NCBI GenBank assembly: GCA_022843485.1
Contig: JALHNM010000005.1
Span: 1-64,000 of the forward strand
Reading direction: 5' to 3'
Origin: Fimbriimonadaceae bacterium
Lineage (GTDB): Bacteria > Armatimonadota > Fimbriimonadia > Fimbriimonadales > Fimbriimonadaceae
DNA length: 64,000 bases
This document shows, piece by piece, positions 9,400-52,366 of this stretch. The notes under the pieces are model-generated. The model did no database searches and had not been told where the DNA came from. It was given only the letters and a program-made list of their open reading frames with translations. The number at the start of each line of letters is the position of its first letter. The stretch's first letter is position 1. Position numbers and translations under genes: made by a program.

Positions 9400-10794
9400 T
9401 CAGCTCTCCCGCTCTTCCTCTTCGGACTTCCCGGCAGCGAGGGCCGTGTCGGCGTCGAGCCTTGCGCCATCGGGAACGGCGACTTGGGGCATTGGCCTCG
9501 GCACGTAGGCGCCGGTGAGGGCCTTGTCCCGGACGCGGAGCCGCTCGGCTCGCTCATCGGCGCCGGGCGCGACCGGCCAGAGGGTCCGGTCGATCCAGTA
9601 GCTGTGCATGAACTCGCCCCAAACGCGCTCGTAAACCTCGGCGGTCTGTCGGGCGATCCCTTCCCAGTGGAAGTCGGTCCGCAGCCGTTCGCGGGCCTTG
9701 ACCTTCATGGCCTCGGCGCGGACAGGGTCACGCAGGACACGGAGGATGCCCCAGGCGAGCGACCCGTGGTCTCCGGCATAGCTGTTCGTGCCGGTCTCGT
9801 CGTGCCGCACGACCTCCCGTAGGCCCCCGGCGTCGCTCGCGACGACGGCGCAGCCCGCTGCCATCCCCTCGAGCGCCACGATCCCGAACGGTTCGTAGAG
9901 TGACGGGAAGACGGCGACGTCGGCCACGCGGTAGAGCTGGTGGAGCGAACGGTTCGCCATAAAGCCGGTGAAGAGGACCTTGTCCTTGAGCCCGTACCAC
10001 CTGACGAAGCGCTCGAGGTTCTCGCGATGGCCCCCGCCGACGACGACGAACTTGGTGTTCGGCTCCTCGGCGAGGACGGCGCTCGCGGCGTTGAGGAGGA
10101 CGTGGATCCCCTTCTCACGGACGAACCGACCGACGTACATGACGATCTTCTCCTCCGGCCGGGCGAGGCGGCGGCGCCACTCCCCCAGTTCGTCGGGGCT
10201 CGCCTCGAACTCGAACTTCTTGGCGTCGACGCCGTTGTAGATGACGTCCGACTTGTCGGCTGGGCAGTTGAAGTAGCGGTCGACCTCCTGCTTCATGAAC
10301 TCGCTGCACACGATGACCCTCCATGCCTCATAGGTGAGCCAGTACTCCTGCTCGTGGATGTACTTGCTGATAGGGGTGTGGACGCCGTTGTTCCGGCCCC
10401 ACTCGGTGGCGTGGACGGTCGCGACGACGGGGAGCTGGTACTCATACTTCAGTTCGCGGGCGGCGTCGAGGCTCAGCCAGTCGTGCGCGTGGAAGAGGGT
10501 GGGTTGCCCCCCGGGTCGCCAGTCCTCAAGGAGCTTGCGAACCCGGAGGTCGGTGGCCTTGTTGAGGAGCTGGATCTCGTGGACGAAGTTGTGCGGCTCT
10601 TGGTCGAGGTGGACGCGGTGGACGTGGACGCCGCTGGGTTCGACCTCTTCGTCCGGGGCGAGTGGTGTGGCCTTCGTGACGACGTGGATCTCGATGCCGA
10701 GCTTGACCAACTCTTTGGACAGGTCGTAGACGTGGGGGCTGATCCCCCCGACGATCCGAGGGGGATACTCCCACGAGAGCATGATCACGCGCAT
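9400..10794 (-). CDS. GT4-family glycosyltransferase, glycogen-synthase-like
   Basis: This is a cytosolic GT-B glycosyltransferase that transfers a sugar from a nucleotide donor with retention. The N-terminal domain opens MRVIMLSWEYPPRIVGGISP, typical of starch/glycogen-synthase-like GT4 enzymes. The C-terminal domain has MYVGRFVREKGIH and the EX7E donor-site motif LYEPFGIVALE (E301 and E309). ADP-glucose-dependent glycogen or maltose-1-phosphate synthesis is possible, but sucrose- or exopolysaccharide-type activity cannot be excluded. Eight codons upstream are open, yet the ATG at 10794 matches family starts and has TAAACT 8 bases upstream (10803-10808), so a leaderless mRNA is predicted. 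The last 30 residues are a charged tail. Confidence 0.88.
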   Translation of the reverse strand: MRVIMLSWEYPPRIVGGISPHVYDLSKELVKLGIEIHVVTKATPLAPDEEVEPSGVHVHRVHLDQEPHNFVHEIQLLNKATDLRVRKLLEDWRPGGQPTLFHAHDWLSLDAARELKYEYQLPVVATVHATEWGRNNGVHTPISKYIHEQEYWLTYEAWRVIVCSEFMKQEVDRYFNCPADKSDVIYNGVDAKKFEFEASPDELGEWRRRLARPEEKIVMYVGRFVREKGIHVLLNAASAVLAEEPNTKFVVVGGGHRENLERFVRWYGLKDKVLFTGFMANRSLHQLYRVADVAVFPSLYEPFGIVALEGMAAGCAVVASDAGGLREVVRHDETGTNSYAGDHGSLAWGILRVLRDPVRAEAMKVKARERLRTDFHWEGIARQTAEVYERVWGEFMHSYWIDRTLWPVAPGADERAERLRVRDKALTGAYVPRPMPQVAVPDGARLDADTALAAGKSEEEERES

Positions 10795-10802
10795 CGGGTC
10801 GT

Positions 10803-10808
10803 AGTTTA
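10803..10808 (-). promoter_or_regulatory. -10 element of a leaderless promoter (glycosyltransferase)
   Basis: TAAACT on the minus strand lies 8 bases from the ATG at 10794. Transcription would begin at or next to the start codon. No Shine-Dalgarno sequence is present. Confidence 0.55.
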
Positions 10809-10891
10809 GCCCGTCCACCCACGGCGGGCCCGCCGCACGAGAATACGAATTCCGATGCGGTCGTGGAAGGGCCGGTCGGACGTACGGGCGG

Positions 10892-11872
10892 TCAAACGAA
10901 GCCGAGTTCGCTGAGGATCCGGGGGTTCTGACGCCAGTCCGTCCGTACTTTGACGAACAGCTCGAGGTAGACCCGCTGGCCCGTCATCTCCTCGATCTCG
11001 AGCCTGGCCTCGGTCCCGACTCGCTTGAGCATCTGACCCTTCTTGCCAATGAGGATCCCCTTTTGGCCGTCGGTCTCGACCATGATGACGACCCCGATGT
11101 GGACGGCCCCGCCCGGTTCCTCGGGCTCTTCCCAAGACTCGACGTAGGCGGCCACGGCGTGCGGAACCTCGGCGCGGGTGAGGCGGAGCACCTTCTCACG
11201 CACGAGTTCGGAGGCGAGGTCGCGCATGGGCAGATCTGTGACCTCGTCCTCGGGGTAGAGCGGGTCGCCCTCCGGCAGAAGCCCGACCAACAAGTCCAGG
11301 AGCCGGTCCAGATTCTGCTCCCGGGTCATCGAGGTCATCATCACGCGTTCGGTCGCGAAGAGCTCAACGTAGGCGTCGTAGTTCGCCTGAACCTCGGCGG
11401 GCGGCAGCAGGTCCATCTTGTTGAGGCACAGCACGACGGGGGGGCCGCTCGACTTGCGCTCCCCTTCGCCCGGCGCCGGGGAGGGCGACCCCAACCTGCT
11501 CGCCAGGGCCTGGGCGAGGGCTCGATCCTCCTTGCCGGGGCGCTTGCTGACGTCGACCATGATGAGCACGGCGTCGACGTCGCTGAGCGATTGGAGGACG
11601 GTCTCGTTCAGCACGGCACCGAGACGGTGGCGGGGTTCGTGCAGGCCGGGAGTATCGGCGAACGCGATCTGCCACTCGGGTCGGGTCGCGATCCCGAGGA
11701 TGCGTCGCCGCGTGGTCTGCGCCTTGTCGCTGACGATACTGACCTTCTGGCCGACGACGGCGTTCACGAGCGAACTCTTGCCGACGTTCGGCTTGCCGAC
11801 GACGGCTACGAGACCGGCACGGTAGGGGCGCCCTTCAGCCACGGCGCCCCCGGGAGCGGGTTCGGGCCCCAT
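10892..11872 (-). CDS. era: GTPase Era
   Basis: Era is an essential GTPase that binds 16S rRNA near its 3' end and helps 30S subunit maturation. All parts are present. The G1 loop GKPNVGKS is at residues 26-33, switch I has QTTRRR, G3 is DTPG (73-76) and G4 is NKMD (151-154). The C-terminal KH domain contains GILIGKKGQMLK (GKKG at 276-279). At 326 residues it is slightly longer than usual because of an insert at about residues 128-143 (SPSPAPGEGE), encoded by a palindromic repeat-like sequence between G3 and G4. The ATG directly follows the stop codon of the upstream gene, with GAGGGAG overlapping that stop, so the two are translationally coupled. Confidence 0.97.
   Translation of the reverse strand: MGPEPAPGGAVAEGRPYRAGLVAVVGKPNVGKSSLVNAVVGQKVSIVSDKAQTTRRRILGIATRPEWQIAFADTPGLHEPRHRLGAVLNETVLQSLSDVDAVLIMVDVSKRPGKEDRALAQALASRLGSPSPAPGEGERKSSGPPVVLCLNKMDLLPPAEVQANYDAYVELFATERVMMTSMTREQNLDRLLDLLVGLLPEGDPLYPEDEVTDLPMRDLASELVREKVLRLTRAEVPHAVAAYVESWEEPEEPGGAVHIGVVIMVETDGQKGILIGKKGQMLKRVGTEARLEIEEMTGQRVYLELFVKVRTDWRQNPRILSELGFV
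11457..11488 (-). repeat. Palindromic GC-rich repeat inserted in era
   Basis: An imperfect palindrome centred on GGCGCCGGG encodes SPSPAPGEGE in a surface loop of Era where other Era proteins have no such insert. The coded peptide belongs to the PLP-x-GEGE type produced when interspersed bacterial palindromes land in reading frames. Similar sequences occur at 30726 and 46153. Confidence 0.4.
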
Positions 11873-14800
11873 CTACTCCCTCTTGCGGAAGAGCACGTTC
11901 AGCCCAAGGTCGTCGGCTTGGCGGTCGGCGCCTTCGCGTCGGCCGTTCGCGCCCTCTTCCCCGCCACCACCCTTCCTGCGTCGGCGGCGTCGCCGTCCTC
12001 CGCGGCTTCGCTGGGCCGATTCGTCCTCGTCGTCGATCGGGACCTCGACGGGGACTTCGAGCATCGAGGGTTTGAGGAGGAGGTCGTCGGCCATCTCTTC
12101 GCTCCAAGACTCCTCGACCCACTCGTCGAGCTTCATGATTGGCACGTCGAACCGCATCGCGTCCCAGTGGAGGGTGTTGTCCTGCCGGGGGAGCGGGTCT
12201 TCGAGCCGGAGGGTCTCGGCCGGGTCGGTCGCGAGCAGGTGCTCGACGTCGGCCCGCAACCCGACCAGGAAGCTGTGGGTCGAGCCGTCGAGGCCGTGGA
12301 ATCGGAGGCTGTTCGCCTCGGTGGCCATCCACTCGCCGGTCGTGAGGGAGTAGGCGGCCCAGCGCTCGGGGAGCATGACCGTCCGCGGGGCGGTGCCGGT
12401 GCAATGGACCGTCAGGAACGGTCCCCGAACGTGCACGACGTCGTTGGTGAGGCTCCAGACATGGGCGCCGGCAGCCTCGCCGAGCGCACGGAAGAGCCCG
12501 GGGGTGACGACGGGCTCGCCGAGGAACACGCTGGTCCACGACTCGCCCCGTTCGCCGGGGAAGTCGCGGCGCACGAAGCTGGGCAGCCCGGTCTGGGAGT
12601 ACTCACCGAGCACCCGGCCGTCCTCGGGGATGGCGAAGTAGCTCGGTTCGAGCCTCCCCCCGGCGGCCATGCCCTTCTCGGGGAGGGCCTGGCAGAGCGG
12701 GTCTCGGAAGTTGAGGATCGTCGTCCCGGACTTGCTGTTAAACGGTTGGGGCCGCAGGGCGATGCCTGTGACCTCGCGCACCCGTTCGAGGCTCTCGCGC
12801 CCGCCTTCGAAGAGTCCGGCGCAGTACACCCAGAAGAGCACCTTGCCGTCGCGCTGGAGCCGGGTCTTGATCGCGCTGCGGACCTCGGGCCGGATGTCCC
12901 AGGCGTTCACGAACACGTGGAGCTTGGACTCCGGGAAGCTCTCGCGGTGGGCGAGGTCGCTCAGCAGGTAGAAGCCGACGCTCAGGCCAGAGCGGACGAC
13001 CGACTCGCGAACTTCCTGGACGAGCGTCTCGAACGCCCGGGGGTCGACGAGGTAGGCCAAGGAGCGCTCGTCGATGAACACGGCCACGTCGGGGGCGGTC
13101 TGAGGGGTGGCGAGGCGCCAAGAAAGGGCGTTGTGGACCCTGCCCCCACGCTCCCAGATCCCGTGCGAGTTGAGCCAGCCGTTGCCCCAACTGTCCATCC
13201 AGCAGACGCCGCCGCCATGGGCGAGGGCCGCACCGACTCCGCGCCAATGGACGCTCTCGAGCGCCTGGGGGGTCTTCATGACGGGGTTGAAGTCGTCCGC
13301 CTCGCGCCGCCCGCTGATCGGCGTCTTGAAGTCCTCCTCGCTCATGAACAGCTTGCCGTTCAGCGCGAAGGAGTCGATCGGGCCGGGGGCCGAGGCCGAG
13401 CCGCCGGGCTCGCGGTTGCGGTAGCTGGGCGGTCCGGCGATGTAGTCGATATCCGGGCAGCGCAGGAGCTTGCCGAGCGAGAGGTGACCGCTGTAGGCGT
13501 GGCTCCATTCGAAGGTGTAGCCATAGCTCGCACCGACGAGGTACCGACCTTCGCTGGCCCGCTTGACGGCGTAGGCCAGGCCAGCGATGCGCTCGCAGGT
13601 CGAGTCGCTCAGGAACAGGTGGTAGTCGACCCAGCGCCGGGCCTTGCGGTCGGTCCGGACGAAGTCCTCGCTCTGGGCGCTGAGGGTCTGCTCGTCGGGG
13701 ACGGCGACGGTGTCGAACTGGGCTTGGCCGTCGAACCAAGAGGCTCGGAGCGAGACGGCGTCGTCGCGGTAGCGCTGGCGGAGCCACAGACGGAACTTGT
13801 CGGTGGCGGCGACGGAGGTGTCGTAACCCGCTTCGCGACCGAAGAACCACTCCCCGCGCTCGATGTGCAGCCCCATCACGTGGCCGCCGGTGTCGACGAT
13901 GCGAAGCTTTCGTACGAACGACTCGAGGCAGGACTCGGCCACGGACCAGAAGGCGTCGTCGCAGAAGCTGGGTTCGGCGACGCCGCCGTCCTCCAGGATG
14001 TAACGGCCCTTCGGGTAGGTCCTCTCCCATCCGTCCGCGGCCACGAACACCGTGCGGAAGACGATCTGGGCGTCGGGGTCGACTTTCGTGACCGCCTTGA
14101 TCAGGTAACCGGCGAAGCCGACCGCCTGGTCGACGGCCCTCGGGTCGACGTCGAGCTCCACGAGCAAGGAGTAGAGGTGGAGTCCGTTCTCGGACGCCAG
14201 CTTGACCTCTTCGAGGACCGTGGCGAGGTGGTCCTCGTCCTGGGCGTTGGCGAAGAACGCGACGGGCGGGTAGACCGTCTTGTGGCGGACGAGCACGGGC
14301 ACGCCGTCACGCACGACGACCTGCGCGGCGTCGGCCGGGATGGCGATCGGTTCTCGCACGGGCAGTTCGGGGGTCTGCGGCCGCTTTGGGGTCCGCGGGC
14401 GGACTTGCTCCTCGCGGACGGGTTCGGGCTGGGGCGCGGCGCGACGGGCCTGCTCTCGGCCACGCCGTGGCTCGGCGGGGGCGGGTTTCGGCTCGACGAC
14501 GGCGGTCGGCACGACGTCGCGCCGGTCCTTGCGCTTCCGGCTCCGGCGGCGTCGCGGGGCGAGCCCGGACTCGTCGCCGTCCCCTTCGCCTCCAAGGCCG
14601 TCAGGGGCGGTCTCGTCGAGATCGGGGGGCGAATCGACGTCGTCCTCGGTCGTCGATGGGGGCGGACCGGCCGAGCGGGTCCGCCACACGGGCACCGGGA
14701 GCGGGTCGCCGTAGGCGGGGTCCTCCGGGGCGAAGACCGGCTCTGCCTTAGCGGCGGCGGCGCGGCGACGCGGAGACTTCGCCGGTTCGGCTACGGGAGT

Positions 14801-15268
14801 AGCGGCGGACGGAGCGGACGCGGCCGGTGCCGGCTCAGGCTTCGCCTCCGGTTTGGCCTTGGGCTCCGGTCGGGGCTTGGCCGCGGCCGGGGTTCGACCA
14901 GCGAAGAGCGGCGGAGCCTTCGGCTTCGCGGCGGGTTTCGCTTCGGGTTCGGCCTGGGGTTCGGCGGGGGATTTCGGGCTGGACTTTGGAGTGGACTTGG
15001 CGGCCGGCGTCGACGGGGTCTCGGGCTCGGCTAGCTTCGTGCGAGTTCGGGGTCGCGGGGCCTTCTTCTCGACCTCGACCAGTTCGGCGAGCGTGCCGGG
15101 GGCCTTCGCGACCGGCTCGACCACTCTCTTGGCTCGGCTGCGGGCGGGGGCCTTCTCGACCGGGGTCTGGGTGGGGGCAGCGGCTTCGGCCGCGGGCTTC
15201 GACCGGCGTCTCGGGGTCTTGGGTTCCGGACTCTCAACGGTCGGTTCGGACTCTTTCTTCTTCGGCAT
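11873..15268 (-). CDS. Glycoside-hydrolase-42-like protein with long disordered N-tail and Arg-rich C-tail
   Basis: This 1131-residue protein has three parts. Residues 1-300 are disordered and rich in Pro, Ala, Lys, Glu and Arg (runs such as RRRRSRKRKDRR). Residues 300-1080 look like a clan-A glycosidase of the GH42 type. A TIM-barrel stretch has LHIERGEWFFGREAGYDTS (E470 a candidate acid/base) and FRLWLRQRYRD, which resembles the FRxWLxxKY motif of GH42. KLFMSEEDFKT follows (E644/E645 candidate nucleophile), then a trimerisation-like domain with DVAVFIDERSLAYL. The last 50 residues contain GGRRRRRRRKGGGG, as in RNase E tails. There is no signal peptide, so it seems cytosolic. The frame is open further upstream, but MPKKKESEP at 15268 is the natural start. 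It is directly coupled to era. Confidence 0.85.
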   Translation of the reverse strand: MPKKKESEPTVESPEPKTPRRRSKPAAEAAAPTQTPVEKAPARSRAKRVVEPVAKAPGTLAELVEVEKKAPRPRTRTKLAEPETPSTPAAKSTPKSSPKSPAEPQAEPEAKPAAKPKAPPLFAGRTPAAAKPRPEPKAKPEAKPEPAPAASAPSAATPVAEPAKSPRRRAAAAKAEPVFAPEDPAYGDPLPVPVWRTRSAGPPPSTTEDDVDSPPDLDETAPDGLGGEGDGDESGLAPRRRRSRKRKDRRDVVPTAVVEPKPAPAEPRRGREQARRAAPQPEPVREEQVRPRTPKRPQTPELPVREPIAIPADAAQVVVRDGVPVLVRHKTVYPPVAFFANAQDEDHLATVLEEVKLASENGLHLYSLLVELDVDPRAVDQAVGFAGYLIKAVTKVDPDAQIVFRTVFVAADGWERTYPKGRYILEDGGVAEPSFCDDAFWSVAESCLESFVRKLRIVDTGGHVMGLHIERGEWFFGREAGYDTSVAATDKFRLWLRQRYRDDAVSLRASWFDGQAQFDTVAVPDEQTLSAQSEDFVRTDRKARRWVDYHLFLSDSTCERIAGLAYAVKRASEGRYLVGASYGYTFEWSHAYSGHLSLGKLLRCPDIDYIAGPPSYRNREPGGSASAPGPIDSFALNGKLFMSEEDFKTPISGRREADDFNPVMKTPQALESVHWRGVGAALAHGGGVCWMDSWGNGWLNSHGIWERGGRVHNALSWRLATPQTAPDVAVFIDERSLAYLVDPRAFETLVQEVRESVVRSGLSVGFYLLSDLAHRESFPESKLHVFVNAWDIRPEVRSAIKTRLQRDGKVLFWVYCAGLFEGGRESLERVREVTGIALRPQPFNSKSGTTILNFRDPLCQALPEKGMAAGGRLEPSYFAIPEDGRVLGEYSQTGLPSFVRRDFPGERGESWTSVFLGEPVVTPGLFRALGEAAGAHVWSLTNDVVHVRGPFLTVHCTGTAPRTVMLPERWAAYSLTTGEWMATEANSLRFHGLDGSTHSFLVGLRADVEHLLATDPAETLRLEDPLPRQDNTLHWDAMRFDVPIMKLDEWVEESWSEEMADDLLLKPSMLEVPVEVPIDDEDESAQRSRGGRRRRRRRKGGGGEEGANGRREGADRQADDLGLNVLFRKRE

Positions 15269-15443: not shown

Positions 15444-17258
15444 ATGGACATCCGACTCATGACCGCCCTCAAACCGGCGGCGGACGCCCTCGCCCGGCCA
15501 CGGCCGGCGGCGGCTCCGAGCCCGGTCTCGAGGCCACCCACCGGCGACCCCCCGCCGAAGGTCGATAACGGCCTTCGCCCGGAAGCGACGCGCGACGAGC
15601 AGAAGACTCCCGCCGAGACGCTGGACCGAGCGAAGGCTCCAGACCGAGCCACAGACCGAGCCCTCGAACGAGGTTCGCCCGACCCGACGACCGACCCCGA
15701 CCCGGCTCAAGCGGTCGCCCTCCTCGCCGAGACCCTTGCCGGGTACGGCTTGGGGACGGCTCAGGCCGCTGACGCGGGCGTCGAGCCCGTCGCTTCGCTG
15801 CGCCAGGCGATCCAGGCCGCACCGATACCGGCGTCGATCAAAGAGGTCTTCCTCGGGATGGTCGACGTCGCGAGCGGAGCCCCCGCCCCGGCGGCGGACC
15901 TGATCGGTCTTGGGCGCCCGGTGCCCACACCGGTCCCGCCCGTCCCGGGGCGACCCCTTCCCTACTCCGAGGCCGTCGGCCCCGAGCTGCCGGTGCCGAG
16001 CCCGACTTCGGTCGAAGTTCCCGAGCCCGCGATCTTGCCCAGGCCCACTTCCGACCCGGCGTCCCAGGTTCCAGTGCCCTCTCTTGGTCGGCCCGAGCCT
16101 GTCCCGGTTCCCAACCCGACCCCGGCACCGGCGATCCTGCCGCGCCCGACGATGGGCGATCCAAACGGCCTTCTCGCCTCGAGCGGACCGCAGGCCACTG
16201 GGCAGACTCTCGACGCGGAGACTGTCGCCGCTCTCAACCCGGTGTCCGTCACGGTCGAGACGGCGGCCCCGGTGCCGGTGGACATCCGGCCCGCGAGTCG
16301 CCGCGAGGCCCCGGAGCCAAGGCTGATGCCCTCGGCTGTGACCGAAACACCGGAGCCCAGTCCCGTCCCGAACCCGAGGCCCGTCCCGGCGGCGGACACG
16401 GTGCCAACACCGGGCCCGACCCCGGTGCCAGGCTCCCCGGCCTCAGCGTCTGCGATCCCCGGGATCGCGATGACGGCCACACCTCGCGAGATGCAACCGG
16501 GACGCCCGGTGCCCGCACCCCCCGTCGCCACCTCGACGACGGAGTCCGAGCCCGTCCCGGCTCCCCGCCAGGCCAAGGGCGAGCAGAGGCCGTTACCCCC
16601 TATCGGCCCGGGCGTCCCGAGGCCGGTCCTCGACGGACCCGTGCCACGCCCCACCCCGAACCCGAAGGGAGACTTCCAAACCCTGCTCGAGGTGCCGGTG
16701 ACCGAATCGGAGGCGCCGACGCCCGGGATCGTGCCCAGTCCGAGTGCACCGCCGACGGAGGCCCCGAAGGCCCGGTCGACCACCGAAACCCCCGCTCCTA
16801 CGACCCAAGCCCTAGCCCGGGAGACCGCCAACGCGGTCGTCCGGCAGGTAGCGGACCGGATCGAGACGATGGTCGTCGCCCGCCAGAGTGGGAACGTGAC
16901 CGTGCGGCTCGAGCCGGCCGACCTGGGGACGATCACCATGACCGTCAAGTCGATGGGTCAGCGGATCGACGCTGAGGTCAGCGCGAGCGAGGACTCGGTA
17001 CGCGCGGCCTTGGCTGCCAACCGCCAAGACCTCGTGCAGAGCATCGAGAGTCGGGGCCTCACGTTGAACTCCTTCAGCGTGGGGGCGGAGACGAACGCCG
17101 ATGCTCGCGGGCAGCAGTTCGCGAGCTACCGCGAGGCCCAAGGCGAGGCCGTGCGGACGGCGGTGATGGGTTCGCTCTTCGGCGACGGTCGGCGTGACGA
17201 GCCCACCCCTCGGACGCTCGCGACCCGGTCGATGAGCCTGGTGGAGGTGTTCGCGTGA
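15444..17258 (+). CDS. fliK: Flagellar hook-length control protein FliK
   Basis: This 604-residue protein is exported through the flagellar type III system, measures hook length and switches export specificity. Residues 1-460 are an extreme Pro/Val/Glu low-complexity region of PVPxP-type units, as expected for the flexible FliK ruler. Residues 465-570 form the conserved Flg_hook domain: VVRQVADRIETMVVAR, then NVTVRLEPADLGTITMTVKSMG and SIESRGLTLNSFSV. An AGGAG Shine-Dalgarno site (15432-15436) lies 7 bases before the ATG, unlike many genes here. The stop overlaps the GTG start of flgD (GTGA), so they are coupled. It is first in the flagellar cluster and divergent from the glycosidase-like gene. 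Confidence 0.9.
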   Translation: MDIRLMTALKPAADALARPRPAAAPSPVSRPPTGDPPPKVDNGLRPEATRDEQKTPAETLDRAKAPDRATDRALERGSPDPTTDPDPAQAVALLAETLAGYGLGTAQAADAGVEPVASLRQAIQAAPIPASIKEVFLGMVDVASGAPAPAADLIGLGRPVPTPVPPVPGRPLPYSEAVGPELPVPSPTSVEVPEPAILPRPTSDPASQVPVPSLGRPEPVPVPNPTPAPAILPRPTMGDPNGLLASSGPQATGQTLDAETVAALNPVSVTVETAAPVPVDIRPASRREAPEPRLMPSAVTETPEPSPVPNPRPVPAADTVPTPGPTPVPGSPASASAIPGIAMTATPREMQPGRPVPAPPVATSTTESEPVPAPRQAKGEQRPLPPIGPGVPRPVLDGPVPRPTPNPKGDFQTLLEVPVTESEAPTPGIVPSPSAPPTEAPKARSTTETPAPTTQALARETANAVVRQVADRIETMVVARQSGNVTVRLEPADLGTITMTVKSMGQRIDAEVSASEDSVRAALAANRQDLVQSIESRGLTLNSFSVGAETNADARGQQFASYREAQGEAVRTAVMGSLFGDGRRDEPTPRTLATRSMSLVEVFA

Positions 17259-45713: not shown

Positions 45714-46126
45714 CCCAATGAGCGGGTGGCCGCGAGCCGCCACACCCCTTTCACGCGCCGCCAGGTGTCTTGGTAGACGTGGACGTGCTCCTTGCCGTCC
45801 TTTCCGGAGCTGACTTCGTGCGAGCGGACCTCGGCCCGGTCGCCGCGCACCTCGAGGCTCACGATGCGCACCTTGTAGAGTTGGGTCGTCCGGCCCCGGG
45901 CGGCGCGACCACGGAGCGTCCGTTCGTACTCACGGCGCGTCTTGACCTCCCCTTCGGCGTTTTTCAAGGTGTACTCCGGCGCAAGGATCTTGAGCATCGC
46001 CTCGACGTCGTTCGCGACGTAGGCCTTGGCGAACCGGTCGTACTGGGCCTGGATGGCGGAACGGACCTGCGCCGGAGCCAGCAAGGGCAGGCAGGCGAGG
46101 GCGAGGCTGGCGAGCGCACGGGTCAT
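45701..46126 (-). CDS. Exported SnoaL/DUF4440-like protein
   Basis: The 141-residue protein has a signal peptide (MTRALASLALACLPLLAPAQ). An NTF2-like cone fold follows: RSAIQAQYDRFAKAYVANDVEAMLKILAPEYTLK and a strand set ending WRRVKGVWRLAATRSL. Such domains bind small ligands or act as isomerases; no catalytic pair is certain. CAGAAT lies 6 bases before the ATG. Its 3' end overlaps the convergent DUF4198-like gene by 13 bases. Confidence 0.82.
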   Translation of the reverse strand: MTRALASLALACLPLLAPAQVRSAIQAQYDRFAKAYVANDVEAMLKILAPEYTLKNAEGEVKTRREYERTLRGRAARGRTTQLYKVRIVSLEVRGDRAEVRSHEVSSGKDGKEHVHVYQDTWRRVKGVWRLAATRSLGHGS

Positions 46127-46152
46127 GCCCCGATTCTGCCAGACAGGGGAGC

Positions 46153-46183
46153 GTTCCCCTTTACCCGAAGGTGAGAAAAGGGC
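46153..46183. repeat. Degenerate palindromic repeat upstream of mrpA
   Basis: GTTCCCCTTTACCCGAAGGT followed by GAGAAAAGGG is an imperfect inverted repeat. It could encode SPLPEGEK in one frame, as the related sequences at 11457 and 30726 do. It lies between the DUF4440 and mrpA starts. Confidence 0.35.
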
Positions 46184-46223
46184 CCACCTCGGGGTCTACG
46201 CCCACGCCGAGGGGGAGTCGGAT

Positions 46224-48518
46224 ATGCTGGGCCCGCTTTGGAGGTCTGGCTTGCCTGACGGGGGGATGCTGGCGGTGCTCGGGGTGGGTTTCTTGCTCTC
46301 GGTGCTCGCCCCGTTCGTGGTGCGTGCGGCGGGCCCGAAGGGGTTCGCGTGGCTGGCCGCGTACCCAGCGGGGGTGTTCGCCTGGGGGCTGGCCGCGCCC
46401 TCCGAGGTGACCGCCTTCCCTTGGGCGGCCGGGGTCGAGGTGGCCCTGCGCCTCGACGGGTTGTCGCGGCTGTTCGTGTTGCTCGTCTCGGGCTTGGGGG
46501 CGCTGATCTTGGTCTACGCCTCGGGGTACTTCAAGCCGCGGCCGAACTTGGGCCGCTTCGCGGGGGCGTTCATCGGGTTCATGGCCTCCATGCTCGGGCT
46601 CGTGTTGGCGGACGACGCGATCCTCCTGTTCGTGTTTTGGGAACTCACCAGCGTCACGAGCTACCTGCTCATCGGGTTCGACCACGAGTCGCCCTCGGCC
46701 CGGGCGTCGGCCCAGCAAGCGTTCCTCGTCACGGCGGCTGGGGGGTTGGCGATGCTCGCCGGGTTCGTCGTCCTTCACAGCGAGACCGGGACGTTCCGGT
46801 TCAGCGAAATGGGGTTCGTGGTGCCGGAGGCCTTGATGGGGGCCCCAGCGCTCCTGTTGATCGTCGCCGGGTGCGCGACGAAGTCGGCCCAGTTCCCCTT
46901 CCACTTCTGGCTGCCGAACGCGATGGCGGCCCCAACCCCGGTCAGCGCCTTCCTCCACTCGGCGACGATGGTCAAGGCGGGGGTCTACCTCCTGGCCCGG
47001 CTCAAGCCGACGATGGAGTCGGTGACGCTCTGGAGCCCGCTCCTCATGGGGCTCGGCGCGGCCACGGCCCTCGTCGCCCTGGCCCTCCTCGCCTACCACC
47101 ACGACGCGAAGAAGCTCTTGGCCTACACCACGATGGGCGCCCTCGGGGCCCTTGTGTTCCTTCTGGGCCAGCCCGACCGGTACGCCCTCCAGGCGTTCGT
47201 CGCCCTCGTGACCGCCCACGCGCTCTACAAAGGGGCCCTGTTCCTGACCGCGGGCTCGCTCGACAAAGCGACGGGGACTCGGGACGTGTTCGCCTGGTCC
47301 GGCCTCGGGCGGGCGATGCCTTGGACTGCGTTCGGAGGCGCCTTGGCGGCGGGATCGGCCTTGGGCTTGGTCGGGACGCTCGGGTTCATCGGGAAGGAGT
47401 ACGCGCTGAAGGTCGGGGGCGCACCGGCCGGTTGGATCGTCACCGCTGCGTTCGCGTTGGGCGCGGGCCTTGTGGCGAGTCGGGTCGGGATCCTCCCCTT
47501 CGTCGGCGGTCGGCGCGAGGCGAAGGCGATCGAAGTCCCTTGGGCGATGTGGCTGGGCCCCGTGGTCCTCGGCGTGGCCGGAATCGGGTTGGCGCTGTCG
47601 GTCGGACTCTGGGGCGCGGGGCTCTTCGACGAAGTCGGGGCCTCGCTCCGGGGGCGGCCGGTCGATTGGACGTGGAAGCCGTTCTTCGGGTTCGACCGAG
47701 TGTTCGCTGCGAGCCTGTTGCTCGCGGGTCTTGGTTTTTGGCTCGGGTGGCGGATCCGGCCGCTGGGCTCGACTCCGCCGACCATGGGCCTGGACCGGTC
47801 CTGGCACCGGGCGGTCGCGGCGCTTCCTGGTTGGGCGGCGAAGGCGACCTCCTGGCTCGCCCCGGTCGGGTCGGTCACTGGCGCGGCGGCAGGCGGCCGT
47901 CTGCGGGACGGCCTCGCGGGCCTCTTCTCGGTGGTGACCGTCGTCGTCGCCACAGGCCTTGCCTCTTCGGGCCCGATCCGTTTCGCGGTGCCTTTCGTTT
48001 GGCCAGGTGTGTTCGAGGCGATGCTGGTCGTGCTGGCGGGGGCGACGGCGGTGGCGGTCGTGTTCGCGCCGCGCCGGGTGTCGGCGATCTGTATGCTCGG
48101 GATCGTCGGCACCGGGGTCGCGCTCATTTTCCTGACGCACGGCGCGCCCGACCTCGCCTTGACCCAGCTCCTCGCCGAGCTCCTGGTCATCGTGATCGCC
48201 GTACTCGTCTTCTACCGGCTCCCGAAGTTCCGGTCGCTCTCATCGGGCTGGGTGCGGGTTCGGGACGCGACTATCGCCCTCGGGTTCGGGACGGTGATGG
48301 CGCTGTTGCTGCTGGCCGTCCAGAGCTCGCCTCCTCAGGCCGACGTCGCGGCGGGGCTGGCGGCGAGGTCGGTGCCGGAAGCGTACGGTCGGAACGTCGT
48401 GAACACGATCCTGGTGGACTTCCGCGCTCTGGACACACTCGGGGAGGCCACGGTGCTGGTCGTCGCTGCGATCGGTGTCCTTGCGCTCATGCGACTGCGG
48501 ATGGAGGACGCGGCGTGA
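46224..48518 (+). CDS. mrpA: Na+/H+ antiporter subunit MrpA
   Basis: MrpA is the largest subunit of the membrane Mrp antiporter, which uses the proton gradient to expel Na+ and resists salt and alkaline stress. The 764-residue protein has about 20 transmembrane helices. It is related to complex I Nuo[50 protein letters not shown] and [17 protein letters not shown] contain the proton-channel Glu, Lys and His. The C-terminal quarter is the MrpB/NuoJ-like DUF4040 region ending [21 protein letters not shown] lies before the ATG at 46224. First gene of a seven-gene operon. Confidence 0.96.
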
Positions 48519-48994
48519 GGTCGTTGATCCTGAGCGTGGGGGCCCGGGCGGTCTCGCCGCTGCTCCTGGTCTTCAGCTTCCACTGCCTGCTGCGGGGCCA
48601 CAACGAGCCCGGCGGGGGGTTCATCGGCGGGCTTGTGGCGGGCTCGGCGGTCGCGCTGTGGGTGTTGGCGGATGGGGTCGAGAGGTTTACGGTCCAGGCC
48701 GTTCCCGGGGGAGAAGGGCAGACTGTGCGGAGCGGGAGCTCCGCGCTCCGTGGAGGGATGGTGGACCCCGTGACCGTGATGAGCGTGGGGCTCCTGACGA
48801 TGCTCGCGAGTGGGTTCGTTGGGCTCGCCCTGGGTCGGGAGGACTTTCTGACCGGGGCTTGGTGGACGGTGAACACCCCGCTGGGGTCCGCGAAGCTCGG
48901 GACGCCGCTCCTCTTTGACCTGGGCGTGTACTTCGTCGTCGTCGGGGTGGTCGTGGCCTTCGTGTTCGAGCTTTCCCAGGAGGCGCCCCAATGA
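48515..48994 (+). CDS. mrpB: Na+/H+ antiporter subunit MrpB
   Basis: The 159-residue membrane protein carries the MnhB signature [20 protein letters not shown] after a first helix and ends with [18 protein letters not shown]. It starts at GTG within the mrpA stop (GTGA overlap). It assembles in the Mrp complex. Confidence 0.94.
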
Positions 48995-49350
48995 GCGTCC
49001 TGGTCGTCGTGCTCGTCGGAGTGCTCTTCGCGGTGGCGGCCTACCTCATGATGCGCCGGAGCATCGTGAAGCTGATCTTCGGGCTGCTCCTCCTGGGGAC
49101 GTCGGCGAACCTGTTCATCTTCGTAGCGGCGCGACTGGTGCCGGGTCGGCCCCCGATCGTGGCCCCAGGGCAGAGCACACTCGAACCCCCGTTCGCCGAC
49201 CCGCTCGGCCAAGCGCTGATCCTTACCGCGATCGTGATCAGCTTCGGTGTGCTGGCGTTCGCGATGGTGCTGGTGAAGAAGACGTATCAGGCGATCGGGG
49301 ACGACGACCTGGACGCGCTCGACCCGGTGAGCCGGGAGGAAGAGGGGTGA
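48991..49350 (+). CDS. mrpC: Na+/H+ antiporter subunit MrpC
   Basis: The 119-residue protein is NuoK-like with three membrane helices: [34 protein letters not shown] and [20 protein letters not shown]. The LTAIVI helix with its polar residues is a MrpC hallmark. It begins ATGA, overlapping the mrpB stop. Confidence 0.94.
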
Positions 49351-50831
49351 GCGCCCTCTGGCCGGTGCTCTGGCCGCTCCTGACGGCGACCGTGATGGGC
49401 CTGCTCTGGCGGCACCCGGTGTGGCATCGCTGGATCGGGGTGGGCGCATGCTTTGCGCACGTCTTCATCGCCGTTCACCTCATGGGGGAGGCGAACGGAA
49501 GAGGTCCGGTCGTGACGACCCTCGGGGGATGGAAACCGCCGTTCGGCATCGTGTTCGTGGCCGACCGACTCGGCGCGGCCATGGTTCTGGTCACGGCTGT
49601 GATCGGGTTCGCCATCGCCCTAAGCTCAGTTCGGGGGATCGACGCCCGGCGGGAGGCGTTCGGCTACCACCCGCTGGTCCAGACGCTGCTCGGAGGGGTG
49701 TGCGGGGCGTTCCTCACGGGCGACTTCTTCAACCTCTACGTCTGGTTCGAAGTCATGCTGGTCTCCTCGTTCGTGCTGCTCGCGCTCGGGGGGGAGCGCA
49801 GGCAGATGGCGGGGGCGCTCCACTACGTCTCGTACAACCTGGTCGCGAGCGCGACGTTCCTCATCGGGATGGGGACGCTGTACGGGTCCATCGGGACGCT
49901 GAACATGGCGGACGTGGCCCAGAGGTTGCCGCAGGCGAACCCGGCGGTGGCGGCGGTGGTCGTCGGCCTGCTGACCGTCGCGTTCGGAGTCAAGGCGGCG
50001 GTCTTCCCCCTGTTCACCTGGCTCCCAGCGAGCTACCACACGCCGCCGACCCTGGTTTCGGCCCTGTTCGCGGGCCTGCTCACGAAGGTAGGGGTCTACG
50101 CTTTGATCCGGACTACCACGTTGCTCGGCCCCGATTCGGCCCCCTGGTTGCCGGGGGTGTTGGTCGTGGTCGCGGTGCTCTCGATGGGGTTCGGCGTGCT
50201 CGGAGCGGTCGCGCAGGACGACTTCCGGCGGGTGCTCTCGCTCCACATCGTCAGCCAGATCGGCTACATGCTGTTCGGGCTCGCGTTGATGACCCCGCTC
50301 GCCCTCGCGGGAGCGGTGTACTACGTGCTGCACCACATCCTCGTCAAGACGAATCTGTTCCTGATCGGCGGGCTCGCGAAGCGGATGTGCGGGACGGAGC
50401 GGTTGGCGGGAATGGGCGGGCTCTACCGCCGGTCGCCCGGGCTGTCCCTCCTGTTCCTCGTGCCCGCGCTCTCGCTGGCGGGGCTGCCCCCTCTTTCGGG
50501 CTTCTGGGCCAAGCTGTTCGTCGTGCGCGCTGGGATCGAGGCGGACGCCTGGGCAGGGGTGGCCGTCGCGCTGGCCTGTGGGCTTTTGACGCTCTTCTCG
50601 ATGCTCAAACTCTGGAACGAGGCATTCTGGAAGCCGGCCCCGCAGGAGCCCACCGAGCCTCTCTGGACTGCTCGCCGGAAGTGGATGGCTGTCCCGGTGG
50701 CGTTGCTCGCGATCGGCACGGTCGGATTCGGGCTGTTCGCGGGGCCGCTCTTCGCGTTTTCGGAGCGTGTGGCGGAGGAACTCCTCCGGCCGGAGACGTA
50801 CGTTCAAGCGGTCCTCGGGGGGTCCAAGTGA
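49347..50831 (+). CDS. mrpD: Na+/H+ antiporter subunit MrpD
   Basis: The 494-residue NuoN/NuoM-like subunit is the likely proton channel. Typical sites: [25 protein letters not shown] (Glu in helix 5), [19 protein letters not shown] (Lys and Pro kink) and [18 protein letters not shown] (Lys in helix 10-12). About 14 helices. The GTG start overlaps the mrpC stop. Confidence 0.96.
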
Positions 50832-51298
50832 TCGGCTGGGCACTGGCCTTAGCCCTGGTCTGGACGGGCCTCCAGGGCGAGGCGACGCTCGCGAACTTCG
50901 TTCTCGGGTTTGGCTTGGCCTGGGGGGCGCTCGCGGTCGTCCGGCCGCTTGGGGGGCGTCGCTTCGGGACGAGATGGCGGCCGGTGCCGATGGTCGCGCT
51001 GGCGGCCCTGTTCGTCCGGGAGCTGTTCGTGTCTAACGCCCGGGTCTTCGCGGCGTGCCTCTGGCCCCAAGGCCGAGACCGCGCTGTCATTGCCGTGCCC
51101 TTGACCGTTGAGGGGCCCGCCGCGATCGCCGTCTTCGCGAACCTGGTGACGCTGACCCCGGGCACGCTCTCGTTGGACGTGTCGGAAGACCGGCGGACGC
51201 TCTTCGTACACACACTGTTCTGTTCGGAGGCCGAGGAGTCTCAGGTCCGGTCCGGGCTCGCGGCGATGGAGAGGCGGGTCAAGGAGGCGATGGAGTGA
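50828..51298 (+). CDS. mrpE: Na+/H+ antiporter subunit MrpE
   Basis: The 156-residue protein has two or three N-terminal helices and a cytoplasmic domain. VPLTVEGPAAIAVFANLVTLTPGTLSLD is the diagnostic MrpE segment, followed by RTLFVHTLF. GTG start overlapping the mrpD stop. Confidence 0.95.
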   Translation: MIGWALALALVWTGLQGEATLANFVLGFGLAWGALAVVRPLGGRRFGTRWRPVPMVALAALFVRELFVSNARVFAACLWPQGRDRAVIAVPLTVEGPAAIAVFANLVTLTPGTLSLDVSEDRRTLFVHTLFCSEAEESQVRSGLAAMERRVKEAME

Positions 51299-51564
51299 GC
51301 CCAGTCGCGGTGGCGGGGGCATGGGCGGCGATCGGGATCCTTACGGTGGGGCTCGCCCTGACTGGGTTCCGTCTCTTGCGTGGCCCGCACCTCGCCGACC
51401 GGGTGATCGCCCTCGATCTGCTGGCGGTGCTGGCGATCGTTGCGGTGGGGTGCCTCTCGGTGGTCTACCGCCTGCCCGTCCTGCTCGACGCGGCCCTGGT
51501 CATCGGGTTGCTCGCGTTCCTGAGCACGGTCGCGTTCGCCCGGTACATGGAGCGTGAGTCGTGA
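51295..51564 (+). CDS. mrpF: Na+/H+ antiporter subunit MrpF
   Basis: The 89-residue three-helix protein carries the MrpF signature GPHLADRVIALDLLAVLAI, including the conserved Asp in helix 2, and ends with the FARYMERES tail. GTG start overlapping the mrpE stop. Confidence 0.95.
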   Translation: MSPVAVAGAWAAIGILTVGLALTGFRLLRGPHLADRVIALDLLAVLAIVAVGCLSVVYRLPVLLDAALVIGLLAFLSTVAFARYMERES

Positions 51565-51902
51565 TCGCCGGGTGGGTGGCGGCGGGGCTTATGGTGATGG
51601 GGGCCGTCTGCGTCACGGTCGCGGCGTTCGGCATCGGGCGGTTCCCGGACAGCCTCGCGAGGGCCCACGCGCTGGGCCTAGGTGCGACGATGGGAGTCCT
51701 CTTCGCGATGGTCGGCGTCACCGTGGCGTTCTTCGACCTCGCGACGGGAGCGAAGGCGATCCTGACGGTGCTCTTCGTCTACTTCACCTCGCCGGTGGGC
51801 TCGCACATGCTGGGCCGGGCCGCATACCGCTTCGGGCTGCTGCCGGTCGGTCTGCGCGTGGACGAGCTTGCCGGCGAGGATCGCGGTTCGGAGGACACCT
51901 AG
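51561..51902 (+). CDS. mrpG: Na+/H+ antiporter subunit MrpG
   Basis: The 113-residue protein has three helices and the MrpG motif GRFPDSLARAHALGLGATMGVL, then FTSPVGSHMLGRAAYRFG. GTG start overlapping the mrpF stop; it ends the operon and overlaps the convergent DinB gene by 4 bases. Confidence 0.95.
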   Translation: MIAGWVAAGLMVMGAVCVTVAAFGIGRFPDSLARAHALGLGATMGVLFAMVGVTVAFFDLATGAKAILTVLFVYFTSPVGSHMLGRAAYRFGLLPVGLRVDELAGEDRGSEDT

Positions 51903-52366
51903 CCCATCGGATCGACGCCCAGCATCTGGAGGAGGTAGGAGATCTGGCCCTCGTGGTAGGCCATGTTCCAGACGTGGAAGTAGACGTTGTCGACGACCAA
52001 GAACTCGCCCGGGAAGGGCATCTCGGTCGGCGTGGCGAGGTCCTCCTCGGTGAGCGAGCGCACGTGGGCCACGATGCGGGCCGTGTCCTCGCGGAGCCGG
52101 GCCTCGAGGGCCTCGAGGGTCGTGTACTCGGCGCGGTGCGCCTTCCAGGCCTCCATCCGCTCGGGCGACCACTCCATCTTTCGCTCGGAATAGACGTCCC
52201 AGTTCTGGCCGACGGCGGTGGCGACCTCTTGGAACTGGTCGAGCGCGCTGCGCATCCCTGGGGCGGGCGACCAATCGAGGCGGTCGGCCGGAACCCGTTT
52301 CACCATCTCGATGAAGGAGTCTTGCTGGCGTTCGAGGAGGCGGACAAGCGTCTGTCGTGCGTCCAT
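51899..52366 (-). CDS. DinB-family protein
   Basis: The 155-residue four-helix bundle has the DinB metal triad: one His in VYFHVWNMAYHEGQI and an N-terminal partner region (FIEMVKRVPADRLDWSPAPGMRSA). Family members are thiol-dependent transferases or damage-inducible proteins, and a nickel or zinc ion sits between the helices. TATGAT (52373-52378) lies 6 bases before the ATG, predicting a leaderless mRNA. Confidence 0.9.
   Translation of the reverse strand: MDARQTLVRLLERQQDSFIEMVKRVPADRLDWSPAPGMRSALDQFQEVATAVGQNWDVYSERKMEWSPERMEAWKAHRAEYTTLEALEARLREDTARIVAHVRSLTEEDLATPTEMPFPGEFLVVDNVYFHVWNMAYHEGQISYLLQMLGVDPMG

Follow-up and report, generated by a model that had tools for sequence, protein, structure and literature searches.

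A tailed GH42-like protein with cytosolic sequence features in the Fimbriimonadales: a candidate multivalent hub

What does a glycosidase-like barrel do with long charged tails, encoded immediately ahead of era? The question is raised by a gene on the minus strand (11873..15268) of the window, the whole 64,000-nucleotide stretch of a Fimbriimonadaceae genome analysed here, whose 1131-aa ORF (P0001) has orthologues in the nearest genomes. The gene starts with the ATG at 15268 and ends with a TAG at 11875-11873, directly followed by the ATG (11872-11870) of era (10892..11872, minus strand), which is identified by the NCBIfam equivalog NF000908 (334.6 bits) and whose first base is the one after the stop codon. 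The protein comprises an N-terminal tail predicted from its composition to be disordered (residues 1-305, 14354..15268), a folded core (approximately residues 306-1050), and a C-terminal tail (residues 1051-1131, 11876..12118) that includes an R7K run; these and all features of the gene given below lie on the minus strand. A previous description made from the letters of this DNA, the sequence-only reading, had proposed just such an ORF, with a charged N-tail of about 300 residues, a GH42-like core, a basic C-tail and a stop codon abutting the era ATG, and was correct in each of these respects. Among the titles and abstract openings of the papers searched, none described such a tailed GH42-like protein. 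Divergent from the gene lies a FliK-like gene with a Flg_hook match (15444-17258, plus strand), a flagellar block being common upstream in many loci of the window's own family, here f1. Elsewhere in the window (46000-52000), strong negative AT skew extends over genes of ordinary membrane-protein codon content, which we take to be a multi-subunit antiporter operon.

The proposed relationship of the core to GH42 enzymes is supported, the homology being shown through relatives, since the window copy itself scores below threshold in Pfam (12.3 bits against PF02449, gathering cut-off 21); it has no match in NCBIfam, and found no relative in a single-sequence search of the PDB. Some orthologues pass the cut-off, with matches located at their own coordinates (G039, 30.3 bits; G048 and G028, 25 bits each; G038, 22.7 bits), 41 of 60 match PF02449 at E <= 0.1 (best 4.3e-9), and a search of the PDB with a profile of the 60 recovers GH42 beta-galactosidases (5dfa/4oif, E 0.0013; 4uni, E 0.0039). 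Alignment by HHalign with canonical GH42 proteins of sister genomes, for which the template comprised just four sequences, covered 89 columns at E 2.6e-6; in the window's own genome PF02449 was without a match at E 0.001. Three-dimensional matches are taken as supporting only. Two AlphaFold runs on six sequences gave poor models (mean pLDDT 47.3 and 46.3); with the former, the first five Foldseek rows were GH42, aligned along the whole core. The best VIA-align row was 3u7v (Z 15.2, 254 aligned, rmsd 4.4), with GH35 enzymes next, all of them clan-A barrels, the absence of GH42 from that listing excluding nothing. From the profile, Pfam, Foldseek and HHalign matches we infer a GH42-like TIM-barrel region at about residues 325-720 (13109..14296), and the Foldseek match of the weak model suggests GH42-type second and third domains at about residues 721-1010 (12239..13108). 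A cytosolic location is not in itself rare among GH42 enzymes; it is the tails that make this protein odd.

An acidic pair is conserved in the barrel. In the profile of 60 orthologues, the predicted acid/base E473, within a GEW motif (13850..13852), is found in 55, the predicted nucleophile E644, within a SEED motif (13337..13339), in 56, and D646 (13331-13333) in all 60. Of the candidate residues put forward earlier (E470 and E644/E645), E644 was well chosen, whereas E470 varies among orthologues and was rejected as acid/base. Both Glu residues are retained by 104 of the 119 rows examined (114 distinct cores), as expected of an active enzyme, and the active site therefore clearly matters in most lineages. 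The 15 rows lacking an intact pair all belong to f1 and, in the FastTree topology on which this count rests, form five maximal clades, with ten genomes in the largest, two in another and a single one in each of the remaining three. In the ten-genome clade both Glu positions are changed in nine members, and one keeps E644. All 15 loci retain the tails, the adjoining era and the terminal motif described below. Conservation of the pair holds for most of the family and fails in five clades, in keeping with the idea that the protein is able to do without it in some lineages, although another residue may there have replaced the lost Glu.

Orthologues occur in 56 of the 61 nearest genomes, including 50 of 50 of high quality, and the gene is mostly single-copy and near-universal in the order; over the phylum, some match was obtained in 231 of 291 genomes (160 of 194 of high quality). 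A scan of genome contigs with a close-relative query gave five loci, all titled as the same phylum, and the viral contigs searched yielded no relative. Our sample comprises 119 loci from 11 families, five named records among them being nearly equal to numbered genomes. A stretch precedes the core in all 119, of at least 70 residues where the ORF is complete and charged in all those printed out; the shortest, at L054, lacks an ATG and could result from a frameshift. Every orthologue examined is thus tailed, and neither of the outcomes that would have spoken against the sequence-only reading (homologues all tailless or all far from era, or a secretion signal in a corrected gene model) was observed. 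Tailless relatives are found in deeper genomes, 19 of which supplied 30 loci, 27 of them long enough for comparison. All 27 have at most 25 extra C-terminal residues, and 16 (14 at the stricter value of 2.0) have a strongly hydrophobic, signal-like start, some of the remainder being cut at the locus edge. No hydrophobic segment was found within the first 60 residues of any of 114 tailed orthologues whose N-terminal end is closed, nor of the window copy. The two counts are not quite like-for-like, since tailed rows were read from the first Met and tailless ones from whichever Met is followed by the most hydrophobic segment. Secretion from a mis-called start was rejected on this ground; the signal peptide was indeed absent, as first reported, and the tailed family has cytosolic sequence features. 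An unrooted FastTree was built from 61 tailed rows and 27 tailless ones, two of the latter long; in it a branch of full support separates the two groups, which makes a single origin of the tailed proteins likely.

The N-tail of the window copy (about 305 aa) is rich in Pro, Ala, Lys, Glu and Arg, and its 275-aa low-hydrophobic stretch is the longest among 311 crude ORFs (462 kb) of the same genome, and the only one of at least 200 aa. Orthologues from genomes of 34% and 39% GC are also tailed, with Lys/Glu/Ser-rich sequences instead, by which an explanation of the tails as a high-GC artefact was rejected. An Arg/Lys patch, RRRRSRKRKDRR, occupies residues 239-250 (14519..14554), while the tail pieces 200-305 and 1051-1131 hold acidic and basic residues in about equal numbers. 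Basic runs of at least four within the last 140 residues occur in only 60 of 84 order members, and RGG-type stretches are commoner outside the order (26 of 34 loci) than inside it (12 of 84). As a DNA pattern, RRRGGRGR does not exceed its control in seven of eight genomes and numbers 17 against 6 in the window's own; the single match in G105 lies just past the core of the tailed gene. Such basic patches would allow an association with RNA or the ribosome, which falls short of showing RNA binding.

Within the order, what is kept is an aromatic-Arg motif rather than Arg-richness. This linear motif recurs along the N-tails of the window's family and closes the proteins of order members; it is the new element here. 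In 69 N-tails of f1, taken from the first Met (sometimes too early), R follows F or W at 146 of 318 positions as against 34.4 expected from Arg content, a comparison among related rows that is not a significance test; the genome background is 500 of 6519. At least one FR or WR is present in 68 of the 69, in typical copies such as LPVPxWRPRS, VSFRPRK and PTFRSR, represented in the window by LPVPVWR at residues 190-196 (14681..14701). Among proteins with complete ends, FR or WR lies within the last 14 residues in all 84 from the order and in 1 of 34 from elsewhere. The window copy ends in GLNVLFRKRE (11876..11905), a terminus whose form, FRKR[ED] followed by a stop, occurs a single time in the whole genome. 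Two low-GC orthologues keep FR/WR while Arg almost vanishes elsewhere in the tail; in one at 34% GC (L044) the N-tail has 3% Arg, yet FR, WR and a terminal VMFRKRI persist. The terminal motif is missing outside the order, so that any motif-binding role could not take one form throughout the family. No end resembling it was found in RNase E/G termini read by eye at 23 of 30 loci. Mimicry of FtsZ was considered and dropped, the FtsZ ends being of canonical DIPxFLR-like type, unlike FRKRE; both ftsZ products end in this way, copies of ftsZ being mostly two in f1, f3 and f5 and one in f2 and f4, and the linker of one FtsZ copy carries a conserved SP[RK][DE]IW motif in many f1 genomes. At 12 f1 loci (L058, L063, L115, L116, L125, L126, L129-L134) the gene after era encodes a protein of approximately 310 aa, and in each of the four tested the FtsZ-binding domain ZipA_C was matched just over the Pfam cut-off (E 5e-5 to 1.8e-7); ZipA is known from gammaproteobacteria, far from these genomes. 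A link to these proteins was also abandoned, as [LI]PVPAWK is present in two ZipA_C-like proteins and absent from the other ten.

The genomic setting is conserved in part. The gene is immediately followed by era at 62 of 63 f1 loci, six of six named records, one of one f3 locus and five of six f5 loci (74 of 76 together), the exceptions being an f1 locus with era inverted and an f5 contig that ends, leaving five of five testable. The era start, as placed by script, lies -23 to +6 from the end of the stop codon in 58 of 60 f1 and named loci, no placement being obtained for nine of the 74. In the few kb of flank fetched, era was beside the gene at none of 43 loci in f2, f4, f10-f14 and f19. The linkage is therefore conserved in f1, f3, f5 and the named records and absent in eight other families; these have tails without an adjoining era, which argues against era as the key to function. 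A HAD phosphatase gene, PpaX/phosphoglycolate-phosphatase-like though below specific cut-offs, overlaps or abuts the start at 31 of 119 loci (18 in f1, seven in f2, one in f4, five in f19), its end falling -86 to +33 from the first ATG, and so spans more families than era. Downstream of era in the window is a GT4 glycosyltransferase of GlgA/MshA type (9400-10818, minus strand), found near the tailed gene at eight of 119 loci only; remaining neighbours vary and are mostly housekeeping or unknown.

The reading we favour, tentatively and with a probability of roughly 0.4, is that a GH42 barrel has become a multivalent hub in the cytosol, with dispensable catalysis. The tailed cytosolic family would descend from GH42-like glycosidases that had no tails and were often exported, and its barrel, probably trimeric by analogy with GH42, would serve mainly as a rigid oligomeric core displaying flexible tails. 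These may offer short beta-strand-like motifs (hydrophobic, any, hydrophobic, any, F/W, R) together with basic patches, so that one oligomer could bind several copies of a partner protein and possibly an anionic polymer. Catalysis would be ancestral and may persist in most species without being what keeps the gene; the loss of catalytic residues in several lineages that retain the protein suggests a binding hub. In favour of this reading are also the near-universal, mostly single-copy presence of the gene in the order, the tails of all 119 orthologues, the conservation of FR/WR in f1 N-tails and at the C-terminus across the order, the fully supported branch that sets tailed proteins apart, and the absence of a PF02449 match from the window's own genome at the threshold given above. 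Against this stand the 104 of 119 rows with both Glu, the upstream HAD phosphatase gene, which would also fit sugar metabolism, and the absence of the terminal motif outside the order. The first two of these favour a plainer alternative, quite possible though we rank it lower, namely that the protein is a working beta-glycosidase of the cytosol acting on an imported or internal sugar, that its tails are mere solubility or crowding spacers and that the Glu losses are local degeneration; the pair is intact in most tailless relatives as well, and the GT4 gene after era might be added. Spacers, however, have no need of a position-specific terminal motif, the ten-genome clade keeps protein, tails and era junction with no intact pair, and the neighbours are varied, most of them housekeeping or unknown.

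That the barrel is RNA- or ribosome-associated and acts together with Era during ribosome assembly, with rRNA bound by the tails, as the sequence-only reading proposed, would accord with the era junction, mostly of a few bases, with the basic C-tail and with the RGG-type stretches outside the order; it appears unlikely given families that have the same tails and no adjoining era, the incomplete occurrence of basic runs, and the balanced charge of the window tail pieces. Its link is one of synteny lacking elsewhere; the stronger facts are that the protein has changed compartment, that its motif is conserved and that the catalytic pair has been lost repeatedly. A hub of transcription termination or RNA decay, sharing a motif-binding partner with Rho, seems slightly less probable again. 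Among the 311 ORFs the only other terminal low-hydrophobic motif hit was Rho, with MTHVFRPRK (one further weak hit was internal), and of 31 Rho loci read (including L246-L267 and L231:2312-3688), the start is MTHxFRPRK-like in 15 of 15 f1 genomes (14 FRPRK, one FRPKG) and MHFR[KR]P in seven of seven f5 (six by script, the seventh read separately). Copies of VSFRPRK type occur in f1 tails, and the sole plausible gene of the window's own genome to contain FRPRK is that of Rho. Such a start is nevertheless found in none of nine Rho proteins of f2-f4 (0/7, 0/1 and 0/1), Rho is without the alternating hydrophobics, and the match is one of five residues in Arg-rich tails, the DNA pattern numbering five in this genome and five in the control. 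The Rho match is best treated as a lead, and not as evidence of interaction. An extension of the favoured hub, in which the tails of an order-wide cytosolic assembly hub and the Rho N-terminus bear the same aromatic-Arg motif and are read by one shared partner, is improbable to a similar degree as the ribosomal role. If it were true, a former sugar enzyme, its catalysis already gone from several lineages, would organise transcription termination, RNA decay or ribosome assembly, with era in the same transcript. The gene is close to universal in one order of a poorly studied phylum and makes it possible to test how a glycosidase gives up first export and then catalysis as it acquires disordered tails that bear a motif. 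The motif is short, conserved and ready for pull-down, so that a hidden interaction network could be opened directly.

Several known systems bear comparison. Like the GH42 beta-galactosidases (PDB 4uni, 3tts, 5e9a, 5dfa/4oif; PF02449), the window protein carries Glu where the two catalytic residues are expected, one ending strand 4 and the other strand 7. In GH42 the acid/base Glu is directly preceded by Asn (the NE motif), and canonical GH42 of sister genomes show NEYG, whereas Gly precedes E473; the tailed family differs further in its long disordered tails, in lineages without the catalytic pair, and in being a conserved gene sitting among housekeeping genes. The tailless GH42-like proteins that other families in the phylum encode (L304-L333) share the same core along its length and, in most, the GEW and E-x-D motifs, but are often exported and in many genomes present in several copies. 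RNase E-type degradosome scaffolds likewise have a folded core, from which extend long charged tails equipped with linear motifs and basic patches; the tailed protein, unlike them, is without a nuclease domain, and a separate RNase E/G gene was matched in 41 of 41 genomes searched.
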